61,387 nucleotides of DNA, taken from Candidatus Obscuribacter phosphatis. GTDB taxonomy: Bacteria > Cyanobacteriota > Vampirovibrionia > Obscuribacterales > Obscuribacteraceae. Below the pieces are notes generated by a model, which saw nothing but the letters and a program-made list of their open reading frames with translations, had not been told where the DNA came from and made no database searches. Of the stretch, positions 45,595 through 51,945 are shown one piece after another (the first letter of the stretch is position 1; each line of letters starts with the position of its first letter). The stretch covers positions 1,071,648-1,133,034 of the forward strand of contig MOYA01000001.1 of NCBI GenBank assembly GCA_001899315.1, given 5' to 3'. The position numbers were made by a program, and so were the translations under genes.

Positions 45595-46107
45595 ATGTCA
45601 AAATTCAATGCTTGGTCGATGTACATGACTGCTGCCCAGCGGGCGCTCGCTAACGGCGACTGGCGCAATGCCGAAGACTCGCTTTTGGCGGCTCTAGCCG
45701 AAGCTGAAGTAAGCAGTTCGGTGGAAGAGAAATTTTTGGCTTCCACTCTAGATATGTTTGTTGAACTCTATTTGCAGCAAGACCAGCTAGAGCGTGCCGC
45801 TGAGTATGCCTTGCGTGCGGTGCGTGCTAAAGAACATTCGCATGCCTTTGGCAAAACTTGTGTGGTTAAGGCTCTCATCAAGCTATCGCGCATTTACTAT
45901 AAGCAAAACAAGGCAGCCGCCGCTGCCCTGGTCGCCAATCGTGCCTTGCATCTTACCGAAGAGTGTTTGGGACCGGCTCATCCGGCTGTGGGGCTCGTGT
46001 CTTCGCAGCTTAGCGAGATCTATTTGAAGATGGGTGCCCACGATAAGGTTATTGAGCTCAATAGCCGTTGTCAGCCGCACACCGTTTACAATATGAGCCC
46101 CATTTAG
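45595..46107 (+). CDS. Small TPR protein
   Basis: This 170-residue soluble protein has three to four TPR units (AQRALANGDWRNAEDSLLAA, TCVVKALIKLSRIYYKQNK, HPAVGLVSSQLSEIYLKMG). ATG 45595 has GGGGTGA upstream. It resembles the kinesin-light-chain-like TPR proteins at 39984 and 46263. No catalytic domain is seen. Confidence 0.8.
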   Translation: MSKFNAWSMYMTAAQRALANGDWRNAEDSLLAALAEAEVSSSVEEKFLASTLDMFVELYLQQDQLERAAEYALRAVRAKEHSHAFGKTCVVKALIKLSRIYYKQNKAAAAALVANRALHLTEECLGPAHPAVGLVSSQLSEIYLKMGAHDKVIELNSRCQPHTVYNMSPI

Positions 46108-46262
46108 CTTTAGCTCTTTCTAGATTTAGCATTTATAGCTGCGGCTAGCTTAAGTTAGTTTTCGAGAAGGTTAATTAGGTCGGCAGTTGGGCTGGCTGGA
46201 CTGTTATGCTAAAGAGGCGTCCGCAAGGCGTGATGTTAGCCAATGCAGCCTAGAGCCCAGGT

Positions 46263-47372
46263 TTGAAGCATTTCACCCCGGAACCAAGATTAGGCAAGCG
46301 TCCTAGTGCAGGGGGCTCATTTAGGCCTGGATTTTTCTGCTTAAGTCTTTTCTGCTTAAGTCTTTTCTGGTTAAGTCTTTTATTGTTTGCTGCACCTCAA
46401 GCTGTCTTTGCTGCTGAAGAGAAGCCCAATCAAAATTGGCATCGCCTCACCGAGCAAGGTCGCAAACTCTTGTACCAAGGCGATTTACCTGGCGCCGCCC
46501 AAGAGTTCGACAATGCCCTCAAACTGGCTGATTCTTTTGACCAGGACGATAGCCGCAAGGCTGTTTCTTTGAGCAATCTGTCGCTCTTGTATAAGGCCAA
46601 AGGCGACTATGAGAAAGCCGAGGGTTTTTCGCGGCAGGCTTTGAAGCTGCTCAACCGTCGCCCGTCTAAAGATAGTTATATGTTTGCCGTCGAATTGAGC
46701 AATCTAGCGGGCATTCTGACCGAAGCCGGTAAGTATGATGAGGCTATCACTCTCTATGAAAGCTCGATCGCCATACTGAGCAAAGTCAAGGGGGGCGATT
46801 CGCTTGAAGTGGCTGCAGTGATGGACAATCTGGCAGTGCTGCATTTGAAGCTAAAAGAATGGGATTATGCCCTCAAGCTTTCTGAGAAGTCTGTGGCAAT
46901 TTATGAAAGAAAGCTTGGCGGCGACCACACAGACCTGGCTCTGGCACTGGGGAATATGGCTACCGCATTGAGCCAGAAGGGGCAGCTTGAAGAGGCTCGG
47001 CAGGCTTCGGAGCGGTCTTTGTCTATAATGAAGCGCAACTATGGCGAGAGGCATCCCGCCGTGGCTTCAGCTATGGATAATCTAGCCGGAATTTATATCA
47101 AAGAAGGCAAATTAGCCGAAGCGGAAGCCCTGCAACTGAGGGCACTTGATACATTCAAAGAACTATTGGGTGAAGACCATCCCGACGTGGCTATTTGTCT
47201 TGATAATCTCTCAGATCTCTATACAATGCAGAAGCGCTTCAAGCAAGCTTTGCGCCGAGCCGAAGATGCTCTAGCCATAGCAAAAAAATGCTATGGCAAA
47301 GAACATGCCCTGTCGCAGAGCATTGAAAGCCGCATAGTCAGCCTAAAGGAAAAGACCTCTAAAGCTGATTGA
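46263..47372 (+). CDS. Exported kinesin-light-chain-like TPR protein
   Basis: This 369-residue protein has a signal peptide (hydrophobic FCLSLFCLSLFWLSLLLF, cleavage near VFAAEE) encoded by a 15-nt tandem repeat. About six 42-residue TPR units follow (for example HTDLALALGNMATALSQKGQ, HPAVASAMDNLAGIYIKEGK, HPDVAICLDNLSDLYTMQKR). The start is TTG 46263. It lies 26 nt upstream of the Lgt-like gene and could share its transcript. Confidence 0.85.
   Translation: MKHFTPEPRLGKRPSAGGSFRPGFFCLSLFCLSLFWLSLLLFAAPQAVFAAEEKPNQNWHRLTEQGRKLLYQGDLPGAAQEFDNALKLADSFDQDDSRKAVSLSNLSLLYKAKGDYEKAEGFSRQALKLLNRRPSKDSYMFAVELSNLAGILTEAGKYDEAITLYESSIAILSKVKGGDSLEVAAVMDNLAVLHLKLKEWDYALKLSEKSVAIYERKLGGDHTDLALALGNMATALSQKGQLEEARQASERSLSIMKRNYGERHPAVASAMDNLAGIYIKEGKLAEAEALQLRALDTFKELLGEDHPDVAICLDNLSDLYTMQKRFKQALRRAEDALAIAKKCYGKEHALSQSIESRIVSLKEKTSKAD
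46335..46379. repeat. 15-nt triplicate inside a signal peptide
   Basis: TTCTGCTTAAGTCTT is repeated three times head-to-tail (46335-46349, 46350-46364, 46365-46379; the third has one change). Each unit adds five residues of the CLSLF type to the hydrophobic core of the signal peptide. Confidence 0.92.
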
Positions 47373-47398: not shown

Positions 47399-48190
47399 AT
47401 GTCTCTAGGTCAGCTTCCCATCGAGGTTCATACTTTCTTTGAGTTTTTGGCTGTAGCTCTCGGGTTTAGGCTCTATACCGCTTCGGCTTCTCAGGAAAAT
47501 CAAGATAAATCTGATTCTGAAAGAATACTAGATTCGCATAAGCGCCGAGCTGTCACCGCTGGTGCCTTGATTGGCGCAATTTTGGGAGCAAAACTGGTGG
47601 TCTTGATGAATCACCCGGAGGTCTTCTCTAGCACAAAGTTGGCTCAGTTTCTGGTGAGCAGTAAGGGGCTTGTCGGCGCCCTTGTCTTCGGCTGGCTCTT
47701 TGTCGAAATAGCCAAGCTTATCACCGGTATTAAAGTAAAGACCGGCGATCGTTTCGTCGAACCCCTTCTTCTTGGGATTGGCCTTGGTCGTATCGGTTGT
47801 TTTTTGAGTGGAAAATACGACCAGACCTATGGCATAGAGAGCCGAGTGCTAAGTGCTTTTGGTTTTAGTTTCGACCCTGGTATTGATTTTGGTGATGGAC
47901 TGAGGCGTTATCCGTGCCAGCTTTATGAAATCGTCGCCATAGTAATCTTCTGGTTCTGGCTCAGGTCAAATAGAAAGCATCCGTTTTTTCGTGAACCAGG
48001 CGGTCAGTACCGCTGCTTTATGCTGTTCTATATGACTTTCCGTTTTTTAATTGACTTTATCAAGCCGGTGCCTCATCTTTACTGGGGGCTAAATGCTGAA
48101 CAGTTGCTTGCTTTGCCTGTGATATTTATTTGCCTGGTTTCTCTTTCTAAGACTTACCTGCAGTTGGCCAAACAAGGGGATAGAACCTAA
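47399..48190 (+). CDS. Lgt-family membrane protein, divergent prolipoprotein diacylglyceryl transferase paralog
   Basis: This 263-residue polytopic membrane protein is of the Lgt (PF01790-like) fold. Lgt moves a diacylglyceryl group from phosphatidylglycerol to lipoproteins. Family marks are GLGRIGCFLSG (Lgt has GRxGNFxN) and RYPCQLYE (Lgt has HPxQLYE). The conserved His-Gly-Gly segment of true Lgt is replaced by KGLVGALVFG, so the essential His is missing. It may not act on lipoproteins but may still bind diacylglycerol phospholipids (inference). It is followed by the radical SAM gene after 6 nt. Confidence 0.82.
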   Translation: MSLGQLPIEVHTFFEFLAVALGFRLYTASASQENQDKSDSERILDSHKRRAVTAGALIGAILGAKLVVLMNHPEVFSSTKLAQFLVSSKGLVGALVFGWLFVEIAKLITGIKVKTGDRFVEPLLLGIGLGRIGCFLSGKYDQTYGIESRVLSAFGFSFDPGIDFGDGLRRYPCQLYEIVAIVIFWFWLRSNRKHPFFREPGGQYRCFMLFYMTFRFLIDFIKPVPHLYWGLNAEQLLALPVIFICLVSLSKTYLQLAKQGDRT

Positions 48191-48196
48191 GAGCTT

Positions 48197-49606
48197 ATGT
48201 CAACAATCAACGAGCGTCCCTATATCTTTTATGAGCTAACCAATAGTTTATGCAGTCTTTGTCTCAAGAAAGTGGAAGCTAAAATAGTCTTTCAAGACGA
48301 AAAGGTCTATATGATCAAGACCTGTCTAGAGCATGGCATAGAGAAAGTGCTTATTTCCATCGATGTGGAATATTACAAACGCTCTCGCAATTTCTTGAAG
48401 CCGCCGCAGACACCTTTGCGCTTTAATACTGCCACAGTGCACGGCTGCCCTTATGACTGCGGGCTTTGTCCAGATCATGAGCAGCATAGCTGTCTGACTC
48501 TCATCGAGATTGCCGAGCGCTGCAATTTAACCTGTCCAGTCTGCTATGCCGATTCTTCGCATGAGAAAGGTGGTTTTCGCAGCTTAGGCGAAATTGAATT
48601 TATGCTCGACGAGTTGGTCAAGAATGAAGGTGAACCAGATGTGGTGCAGCTCTCTGGTGGTGAACCGACTATACATCCACAGTTTTTTGAGATTATGGAT
48701 GCCGCCAAGCTTAGACCTATTCGCCATTTGATGGTCAATACCAATGGCATACGTCTGGCTAAAGACAGAGAGTTTGTCAAACGATTGGCTCAATATAAAG
48801 ACGGGTTTGAAGTCTATCTGCAATTTGACAGCCTCAAAGCCGAACCGCTTAAAGTGCTGAGGGGCGAAGACTTGCGCCAAGTGCGTCGACGGGCTCTAGA
48901 TCATCTCAATGAGTTTGATATTTCCACCACCTTGGTGGTGACTCTGCAGAAAGGCTTGAATGACGGCGAAATCGGCGAGATTATCGACTTTGCTTTGAAA
49001 GAACCGGCTGTCAGAGGGGTTACTTTTCAGCCGGTCCAGTCGGCTGGTCGTCTAGAAACTTTTGATCCTGCATCGGATCGTCTCACTCTATCGGAAGTGA
49101 GACAGCAGATTTTGAGCCAGAGCAAACTGTTTTCTGAGTCTGATATTTTGCCTGTGCCCTGTCATCCTGATTGCATTGCTATGGCTTATGCCCTCAAGCT
49201 TGATGATAAGGTTATGCCTCTGTCTGGTCTTATTCCTCCAGAAGAACTATTGAAGGGTGGAAACACCATACAGTATGAGAAAGACCCTGTTATGAAAGAA
49301 AAGCTCTTTCAGCTTTTCTCTCTCAATCAGGCTGAGAAGAATACATCCCATGCAGTCGGTGATCTTCTCTGTTGTTTGCCCAAGCTTGAGGTTCCGACCG
49401 AACTTTCATACCGAAATATTTTCAGAGTGATAATTATTGAATTTCTCGACCGTTATAACTTTGATGTTAGATCGGTTAAGCGAGCCTGTGTGCATATAGT
49501 GCATCCAGATGGGCGTATAATTCCATTTGATACTTACAATATGTTCTACAGAGAAAATCTAGACGTAGAAAAAATTGCAAAATATGGCGTCAAGTTAGCC
49601 CCTTAA
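48197..49606 (+). CDS. Radical SAM protein resembling tetraether lipid synthase (Tes/MJ0619 group)
   Basis: This 469-residue radical SAM enzyme has an N-terminal Cys pair (LCSLC, about 19-23). A second Cys cluster follows, GCPYDCGLCPDHEQHSC, just ahead of the radical SAM motif CNLTCPVC (C109, C113, C116). It also has LSGGEPTIHP and a C-terminal block ending HPDGRIIPFDTYN. This layout, with extra Cys motifs before the radical SAM site and a PDGRxIPFxxYN end, is that of the archaeal Tes and pterin methylase MJ0619 family. The usual Cys near the end (PFC) is Asp here. Tes couples lipid tails by C-C bonds; MJ0619 methylates a pterin. Which of these is done here is open. Confidence 0.8.
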   Translation: MSTINERPYIFYELTNSLCSLCLKKVEAKIVFQDEKVYMIKTCLEHGIEKVLISIDVEYYKRSRNFLKPPQTPLRFNTATVHGCPYDCGLCPDHEQHSCLTLIEIAERCNLTCPVCYADSSHEKGGFRSLGEIEFMLDELVKNEGEPDVVQLSGGEPTIHPQFFEIMDAAKLRPIRHLMVNTNGIRLAKDREFVKRLAQYKDGFEVYLQFDSLKAEPLKVLRGEDLRQVRRRALDHLNEFDISTTLVVTLQKGLNDGEIGEIIDFALKEPAVRGVTFQPVQSAGRLETFDPASDRLTLSEVRQQILSQSKLFSESDILPVPCHPDCIAMAYALKLDDKVMPLSGLIPPEELLKGGNTIQYEKDPVMKEKLFQLFSLNQAEKNTSHAVGDLLCCLPKLEVPTELSYRNIFRVIIIEFLDRYNFDVRSVKRACVHIVHPDGRIIPFDTYNMFYRENLDVEKIAKYGVKLAP

Positions 49607-49637
49607 TTACAGACAATTGCGGTGAGGCAGAGAACAG

Positions 49638-49982
49638 ATGGGCAAGTATACCGGTGAAGAGCTGGATAATAATCACAATTCGATGATTCGGATGAGCCTT
49701 GGCGTGCACTTCCTTTTATTTCTCTCTCTGATGTCTATAAAGTTCTTCAGCAAACTGCCAATCTTAGATTCTATTTGCCGTTTTCTTCCGGTTGATGGCG
49801 TCTTTGCTCTTCTGATGACCGCCTTTACCGGCTTTGCTCTTGTGCCTCTGGCATTTGGCTTATATTTTTTGGTTTTCGAATTTGGCAGTGCTAAGGCTTT
49901 AGGTTCTTTTATCGCAGCCGGCTGTTGTCTTTTCTTTTCTATGATAGGTTGCGGTCTTGGTGCTCAGATTTTTGCCAATTAA
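49638..49982 (+). CDS. Small membrane protein of the Lgt-like/radical SAM operon
   Basis: This 114-residue protein has about three membrane helices (residues 20-40, 50-75, 87-112). A short polar N-terminus has several Asn. ATG 49638 has GAGG-type sequence upstream and lies 31 nt after the radical SAM gene, so it is likely in the operon. I recognise no family. Confidence 0.7.
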   Translation: MGKYTGEELDNNHNSMIRMSLGVHFLLFLSLMSIKFFSKLPILDSICRFLPVDGVFALLMTAFTGFALVPLAFGLYFLVFEFGSAKALGSFIAAGCCLFFSMIGCGLGAQIFAN

Positions 49983-50080: not shown

Positions 50081-50578
50081 CTTTACCGAGCAATAGAGAA
50101 AGAAGGCCGGACTCTGGATTTCTTCTTGTCTCACACGCGAAGCACGGCTATGGCAAAGCGTTTTCTCTGCAAGGCGCTAAGAAAACATAAGCCTTACGAT
50201 AGACCGGACACGATCAATACAGATAAGAACCCTGCCTATGGTGCCGCTCTCAAGGAAATGAAAGACGAAGGTCGATGTGACGCTAACCTTGTGCACAGGC
50301 AGGTCAAATGTCTGAACAACAGACTGGAAGCTGATCACGGCAAGCTTAAGCGGCTTCTTAAGCCAGTCCGTGGATTCAAGTCAATGAAGACTGCTTATGC
50401 CACCATCAAAGGAGTTGAGGTCATGCGCATGTTTCGCAAGGGGCAAATGCGTGTCTGGCAGTTATTTCCAGGCGTCAAGGGCGAAGTGAATCTAGTGGAA
50501 AAACAGTTCGAGCTAGATAGCCAAAATGCCTACAGCGAGTTTTGGAAAACACTGATGGCTGAATTTGAGGCTGCATAA
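50081..50578 (+). pseudogene. IS6 transposase, N-terminally truncated
   Basis: The frame from 50081 matches the C-terminal two thirds of an IS6-type DDE transposase, including the middle Asp (NTDKNPAYGAAL) and the final Glu-containing EADHGKLKRLLKP. The ends are complete on the 3' side (stop at 50576-50578) but the first Asp and the HTH are lost. The protein cannot be functional. Confidence 0.88.
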
Positions 50579-51228: not shown

Positions 51229-51945
51229 GGCATTTTGGCTATCTAGCCCGAACTGTTTTTCCACTAGATTCACTTCGCCCTTGACGCCTGGAAATAGCTG
51301 CCAGACACGCATTTGCCCCTTGCGAAACATGCGCATGACCTCAAATCCTTTGATGGTGGCATAAGAAGTCTTTATTGACTTGAATCCACGGACTGGCTTA
51401 AGAAGCCGCTTAAGCTTGCCGTGATCAGCTTCCAGTCTGTTGTTCAGACATTTGACCTGCCTGTGCACAAGGTTAGCGTCACATCGACCTTCGTCTTTCA
51501 TCTCCTTGAGAGCGGCACCATAGGCAGGGTTCTTATCTGTATTGATCGTGTTCGGTCTATCGTAAGGCTTTTGTTTTCTTAGCGCCTTGCAGAGAAAACG
51601 CTTTGCCATAGCCGTGCTTCGCGTGCGAGACAAGAAGAAATCTAGAGTCCGGCCTTCTTTCTCTATTGCTCGGTAAAGGTACTTCCACTCACCTTTCACC
51701 TTGACGTAGGTCTCATCAATTTGCCATGAACTGGAGTAGGACGGACGATAGTGCCAGCGCAGGCGCTTTTCGATCTCAGGGGCGTAGTGCTGTACCCAGC
51801 GACAAATGGCGGTGTGGTCGACATCGACGCCACGCTCTTCCATCATCTCTTCGAGGTCTCTTTAACTGATGCCGTACTTGCAATACCAGCGGACACACTG
51901 GAGGATAATCTCACCCTGGAAATGTCGCCATTTGAAGTCGTTCAT
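51103..51945 (-). pseudogene. IS6 transposase with nonsense codon and replaced C-terminus
   Basis: From ATG 51945 the frame gives MNDFKWRHFQGEIIL...YCKYGIS, then TAA (51864-51862), then continues in frame as RDLEEMMEERGVDVDHTAI. Family members have Ser-Tyr-Arg-Asp-Leu here, so TAA replaced a Tyr codon. Catalytic Asp (QIDETYVK) and the middle Asp are kept. After 51229 the frame leaves IS sequence and ends in unrelated residues at 51103. The DNA is 97% or so like the other half by eye. Confidence 0.88.

Follow-up and report, generated by a model that had tools for sequence, protein, structure and literature searches.

A conserved Lgt-like/Tes-like radical SAM cassette in bacteria and its possible role in attaching an unusual lipid anchor to small membrane proteins

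Lgt acts on a cysteine located where an in-to-out helix ends on the outer side. In the E. coli enzyme, Arg143, Glu202, Tyr235 and Arg239 bind the donor lipid (PMC4728403). The archaeal tetraether lipid synthase GDGT-MAS (Tes) is a radical SAM enzyme that binds two phospholipids (PMC9433317). Bacterial Tes homologues were noted by Zeng et al. 2022 (PMC8941075); a text search of that paper for 'neighbor' gave no hit. The nearest concept to the cassette described in this report is MYXO-CTERM/myxosortase, where an invariant cysteine flanks a C-terminal TM helix on one side and lipidation by an Lgt-like enzyme was predicted by the authors (PMC11980579). The topology is opposite. In MYXO-CTERM proteins the cysteine is followed by the helix and an Arg-rich cytosolic tail, whereas in the cassette proteins the helix comes first and the cysteine second. 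The partner differs as well, being a protease in the former and a radical SAM enzyme in the latter. No account of the cassette was found in the literature searched, with partial overlap with Haft 2024 (Cys-containing C-terminal signals) being possible, and none of the Pfam or NCBIfam models matched is specific to the cassette members. The cassette is apparently undescribed so far and its parts are variants of known families.

The analysed window comprises 61,387 nucleotides from Candidatus Obscuribacter phosphatis. A first-pass annotation had placed three plus-strand genes, spaced 6 and 31 nt apart, at positions 47399–49982, and the open reading frames are found exactly there. The first gene (47399–48190) encodes an Lgt-fold membrane protein of 263 aa, here termed LgtL. 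It is followed by the gene of a Tes-like radical SAM enzyme of 469 aa (48197–49606) and by that of a small multi-TM protein of 114 aa (49638–49982), the proposed cysteine acceptor (substrate). Scans for a promoter and a terminator of the operon gave no excess over shuffled sequences. Two TPR-repeat genes (45595–47372) lie directly 5' of the cassette with a gap of 26 nt and are not conserved there in other genera.

LgtL belongs to the Lgt fold family (Pfam LGT, PF01790, 80.6 bits with a cut-off of 24.9; profile match to 5azb with E = 1.4e-17) and is far below the cut-off of the Lgt equivalog TIGR00544 (31.3 vs 118.9 bits). Its predicted model has a pLDDT of 91.6. Foldseek found no match of this model at E < 0.001 among solved structures, Lgt included. 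As the sequence profile does find 5azb, a gap in the library or a Foldseek miss is suspected and the missing match is given no weight. In the alignment, Arg143, Glu202, Tyr235 and Arg239 of E. coli Lgt correspond to Arg131, Glu177, Tyr211 and Arg215 of LgtL. Three of these positions (Arg143, Tyr235 and Arg239) are kept in 45/45 LgtL relatives and Glu202 in 43/45. The phosphatidylglycerol pocket is retained in LgtL, and by this conservation most of the site for the glycerol part of the lipid is intact.

The proposed absence of the essential histidine from this Lgt fold holds true. His103 of E. coli Lgt, part of the HGGL motif, aligns with Val92 of LgtL, and the position is occupied by Val, Leu or Ile in all 45 relatives. 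Compared to Lgt (5azb/5azc), Asn146 is also replaced by Cys and Glu151 is lost, a conserved lysine is present one turn ahead of the His103 position (Lys89 in LgtL; 44/45 relatives) and the gene is tied to a radical SAM gene. LgtL is an extra paralogue, since the same genome encodes an ordinary, canonical Lgt with HGG kept.

The second protein contains the domains Zn_ribbon_HMPTM and Radical_SAM. The Tes-like cysteine motifs that had been pointed out earlier are present, and the protein matches GDGT-MAS (7tol/7tom) with E = 9e-69 and 34% identity. Its model aligns with 7tol over nearly the full length (Foldseek, TM-score 0.78), and 7tol ranks far above all other solved structures apart from 7tom, in which the same enzyme was solved a second time. 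Shared with GDGT-MAS/Tes and invariant are the ligands of the rubredoxin site (Cys19/Cys22/Cys43/His46), the N-terminal cluster (Cys84/Cys88/Cys91) and the radical SAM cluster (Cys109/Cys113/Cys116).

The C-terminal site is different. GDGT-MAS has CC, PFC and Met439 at this site, whereas the aligned clade members have PFD or PFE. In the window protein PFC is replaced by PFD, with loss of the cysteine, Met439 (Met in most relatives) by Ile and Tyr459 by Ile434, so that the C-terminal site does not have the Tes-type residues. Invariant cysteines of the window's clade in this part are Cys322, Cys392, Cys393 and Cys431, the first three of which GDGT-MAS does not have. Judging from their conservation, these four could be ligands of a C-terminal cluster; the model is poor at residues 370–402. 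Furthermore, a 21-residue insert of GDGT-MAS is missing. The comparison with the Tes model (NF045702), suggested as a check by the first-pass annotation, gave 288.9 bits with a cut-off of 450. The model of the TrsS radical SAM (seleno)protein (NF045646) is the top-scoring NCBIfam model and aligns over nearly the full length, yet its score of 328.4 bits is below the cut-off of 490. Membership of Tes or TrsS was rejected on these scores. The partner of TrsS is a DVU_1556-type methyltransferase, that of the window protein is Lgt-like, and the genes on either side of the window cassette include no methyltransferase of the TrsM/DVU_1556 family.

The radical SAM gene has a true orthologue in 6 of 60 relatives, which makes seven genomes including the window's own. 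LgtL adjoins it in six of the seven; the exception is a genome where the start of the radical SAM gene is at most 81 bases from a contig end. The LgtL family profile scores at least 240 bits in exactly those six genomes and at most 92 bits in everything else. Among 386 genomes of the phylum, the radical SAM gene occurs in 11 and LgtL in 9, all nine of them inside the 11 (Fisher p ~1e-16). A GTDB scan with one genome per species extended the comparison. The best 80 loci among the matches listed are 58–99% identical and cover at least seven phyla (Bacillota, Cyanobacteriota, Planctomycetota, Acidobacteriota, Verrucomicrobiota, Bacteroidota and Myxococcota). In 75 of 80 loci examined (the window and L040–L118) LgtL is encoded on the same strand no more than 6 kb away, and in 65 copies (L039–L118) it lies directly 5' of the radical SAM gene at a distance of at most 120 nt, often with overlapping reading frames. 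The neighbourhood of Lgt-like and radical SAM genes that the first-pass annotation expected in relatives is therefore found across phyla. The pairing is a conserved unit, far beyond chance. AtpC and a thioesterase, which flank the gene pair at L105 and L109, were considered as further partners and dismissed, because they are found only at these two loci. One genome without LgtL (G105) carries two partial, divergent relatives of the radical SAM gene (L165 and L167, about 206–260 bits), which probably belong to another clade.

The third gene, correctly described from the start as that of a small membrane protein, proved the most informative part. The product has no family match in Pfam or NCBIfam and contains about three hydrophobic helices, the last of which ends SMIGC-GLGAQIFAN. 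At most loci the gene 3' of the radical SAM gene encodes a small hydrophobic protein. Proteins with three TM helices and roughly 100 aa form the largest family, found in Bacillota and Cyanobacteriota; in other phyla the third protein is dissimilar in sequence, and two, three or four of them may occur in a row (L075, L073 and L085, respectively). In nearly all copies, a cysteine is located 5–18 residues before the C-terminus, close to where the last TM helix ends, e.g. FLLNAAC-FG in Paenibacillus, ALLNGGC-F in cyanobacteria, MLFVAVC-FAIW in planctomycetes and SMIGC-GLG in the window. In the planctomycete locus L085 (6959–8298), four tandem small membrane proteins with a TM-end cysteine are encoded between the Lgt-like and the radical SAM genes.

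The same cysteine recurs where the protein with three TM helices is replaced. One Paenibacillus group without it has a B-box zinc-finger protein encoded just 5' of LgtL, with a single C-terminal helix and the end LLLTICGAILFSY. In three other genomes of the window's phylum, the neighbour is a protein of 60–68 aa with one N-terminal helix, the cysteine and a Pro-rich tail (WFASEAC-SLYPP, WFATQAC-FPILRPP). Together with a form consisting of a zinc ribbon and three TM helices, at least four dissimilar architectures share the TM-end cysteine. By a uniform rule, the signature is present in 78 of 543 nearby same-strand ORFs vs 17 of 5650 others (odds ratio 56, p ~1e-67), p values that overstate independence because the loci are related. 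An earlier test restricted to small membrane ORFs gave 69/80 vs 7/55. The dissimilar scaffolds are the stronger argument, and since they share the cysteine, the small proteins look like a set of acceptor substrates. No recognisable small protein was found near L097, L105, L109, L113 and L117.

The signal-anchor form, with its single N-terminal helix, suggests a topology with the N-terminus inside and the cysteine outside, as in a lipoprotein precursor, and the charge bias ahead of the helix (146 Lys/Arg vs 39 Asp/Glu) agrees. Both place the cysteine on the side of the membrane where Lgt is active. A standard lipobox ([LVI][ASTVI][GAS]C after an N-terminal signal peptide) was rejected for the third protein, as residues -3 to -1 vary and the in-to-out helix preceding the cysteine is usually the last of several.

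A distant version of the cassette, partly plasmid-borne, is found in Actinomycetota (L153 4143–6554, L154 3199–5521 and L151 3093–6470). On plasmids of Mycobacterium branderi and M. avium and in Nonomuraea, the radical SAM protein is encoded together with an Lgt-like protein and either one or two small TM proteins, which end GLCTGLNPADYAG, GVCTGLNPAMYTGA or GICTGINPSLYG. The radical SAM protein is 31–32% identical to that of the window (M. branderi, Nonomuraea), and the cysteines of the N-terminal auxiliary cluster are lost in the two aligned proteins (L151 and L153). This version is taken as an independent distant case with the same partners. TrsS-like genes on Mycolicibacterium and haloarchaeal plasmids (L150 4971–7339 and L152 4971–7134) adjoin a DVU_1556-type methyltransferase gene, and no Lgt-like gene is annotated in their vicinity. 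They score below the NCBIfam cut-offs in both loci and fall outside the window's clade, the deep order being unsure because of long branches.

The variable third partners have one feature in common, the cysteine near the end of a predicted in-to-out TM helix. The cassette may thus constitute a dedicated protein-lipidation system that places an unusual lipid anchor on a small protein, a reading to which a probability of roughly 0.55 is assigned. LgtL would bind phosphatidylglycerol in the retained Arg/Glu/Tyr/Arg pocket and transfer diacylglyceryl to the TM-end cysteine, as Lgt does to the lipobox cysteine; another group, perhaps the conserved Lys89, would do the work of His103. This first step is considered fairly probable by analogy, because Lgt acts on such a cysteine and the neighbours of LgtL present one. 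The tandem copies of the small protein, up to four, fit a substrate role, as expected. In a second step, before or after the first, the Tes-like enzyme would abstract hydrogen from fatty-acyl tails, either of the attached lipid or of the donor, and couple them, resulting in a cross-linked or membrane-spanning lipid anchor on the small protein. This step is put forward tentatively, at somewhat less than even odds. The modelled kinship to GDGT-MAS, a binder of two phospholipids, counts in favour of the lipidation reading, and the Tes-like partner argues for work on lipid tails over pterins. It is rather doubtful whether the attached tails are joined carbon to carbon, to each other or to another lipid, yielding macrocyclic or membrane-spanning lipoproteins in ordinary bacteria. 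Several observations speak against lipidation: LgtL does not have the histidine essential in Lgt, the context of the cysteine differs from a standard lipobox, no small protein is recognisable near a few of the loci and a cytosolic radical SAM enzyme would need an access route to outer-leaflet lipid.

Alternatively, the radical SAM enzyme might make bulk membrane-spanning or tail-linked lipids, with LgtL binding or presenting phospholipids and the small protein serving as an accessory subunit. Such a membrane-spanning or cross-linked lipid system was the proposal of the first-pass annotation. Its pairing of the two genes and its preference for lipid tails over pterins stand. The full-length kinship to GDGT-MAS is consistent with bulk lipid synthesis, as are the branched tetraethers proposed as products of bacterial Tes homologues (PMC8941075), and so is LgtL, where the phosphatidylglycerol pocket is kept and the catalytic histidine lost as in a binding-only protein. 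Nevertheless, it is unlikely. The radical SAM protein is below the Tes and TrsS cut-offs and has a different C-terminal cysteine set (PFC cysteine lost, Cys322, Cys392 and Cys393 extra), the TM cysteine suggests that a protein is modified, and neither its presence in dissimilar small proteins nor the tandem copies are accounted for. Moreover, many carriers (Paenibacillus, Bacillus and filamentous cyanobacteria) are not known to produce such lipids.

Still less likely, the radical SAM enzyme acts on the small protein itself and forms a thioether between a lipid tail and the TM cysteine, while LgtL only holds the lipid. GDGT-MAS passes through a C-S intermediate between lipid and cluster (PMC9433317), LgtL has no His103 and the cysteine often lies a few residues within the helix, close to the acyl chains. 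In the signal-anchor carriers, however, a polar, Pro-rich and presumably external tail follows directly after the cysteine, which places it at the outer surface, away from the cytosolic enzyme. That the small proteins are non-substrates whose cysteine binds a cofactor or forms a disulfide, the cassette methylating a pterin or another cofactor in line with the original MJ0619 annotation, the Pfam name HMPTM of the N-terminal ribbon and the alternative offered by the first-pass annotation, is very improbable. Pterin methylation was rejected on literature and neighbourhood. The pterin role of MJ0619 could not be corroborated (PMC9433317), a lone TM cysteine makes a poor cofactor site when its scaffolds are dissimilar, and the pairs that adjoin a methyltransferase gene (TrsS/TrsM-like) do not belong to the window's clade.

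If the preferred reading, lipidation of the small protein, is true, a second route of cysteine lipidation would exist alongside Lgt/LspA in seven or more bacterial phyla, with Bacillus, Paenibacillus and cyanobacteria among the easily cultured carriers. Its first step would be Lgt-type lipidation; a radical step on a lipoprotein, if confirmed, would be of a new kind and bring radical chemistry into lipoprotein maturation. Bacterial Tes relatives, guessed to be makers of branched tetraethers (PMC8941075), would gain another, directly testable substrate, the small protein encoded alongside. Where bacterial tes homologues serve as survey markers of membrane-spanning lipids, the window's clade would have to be kept apart.

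Just 3' of the cassette, a transposase segment of 450 nt is present twice in inverted orientation (50081–50530 and 51229–51678). The two copies are 98% identical and the one at 50081–50530 is truncated.
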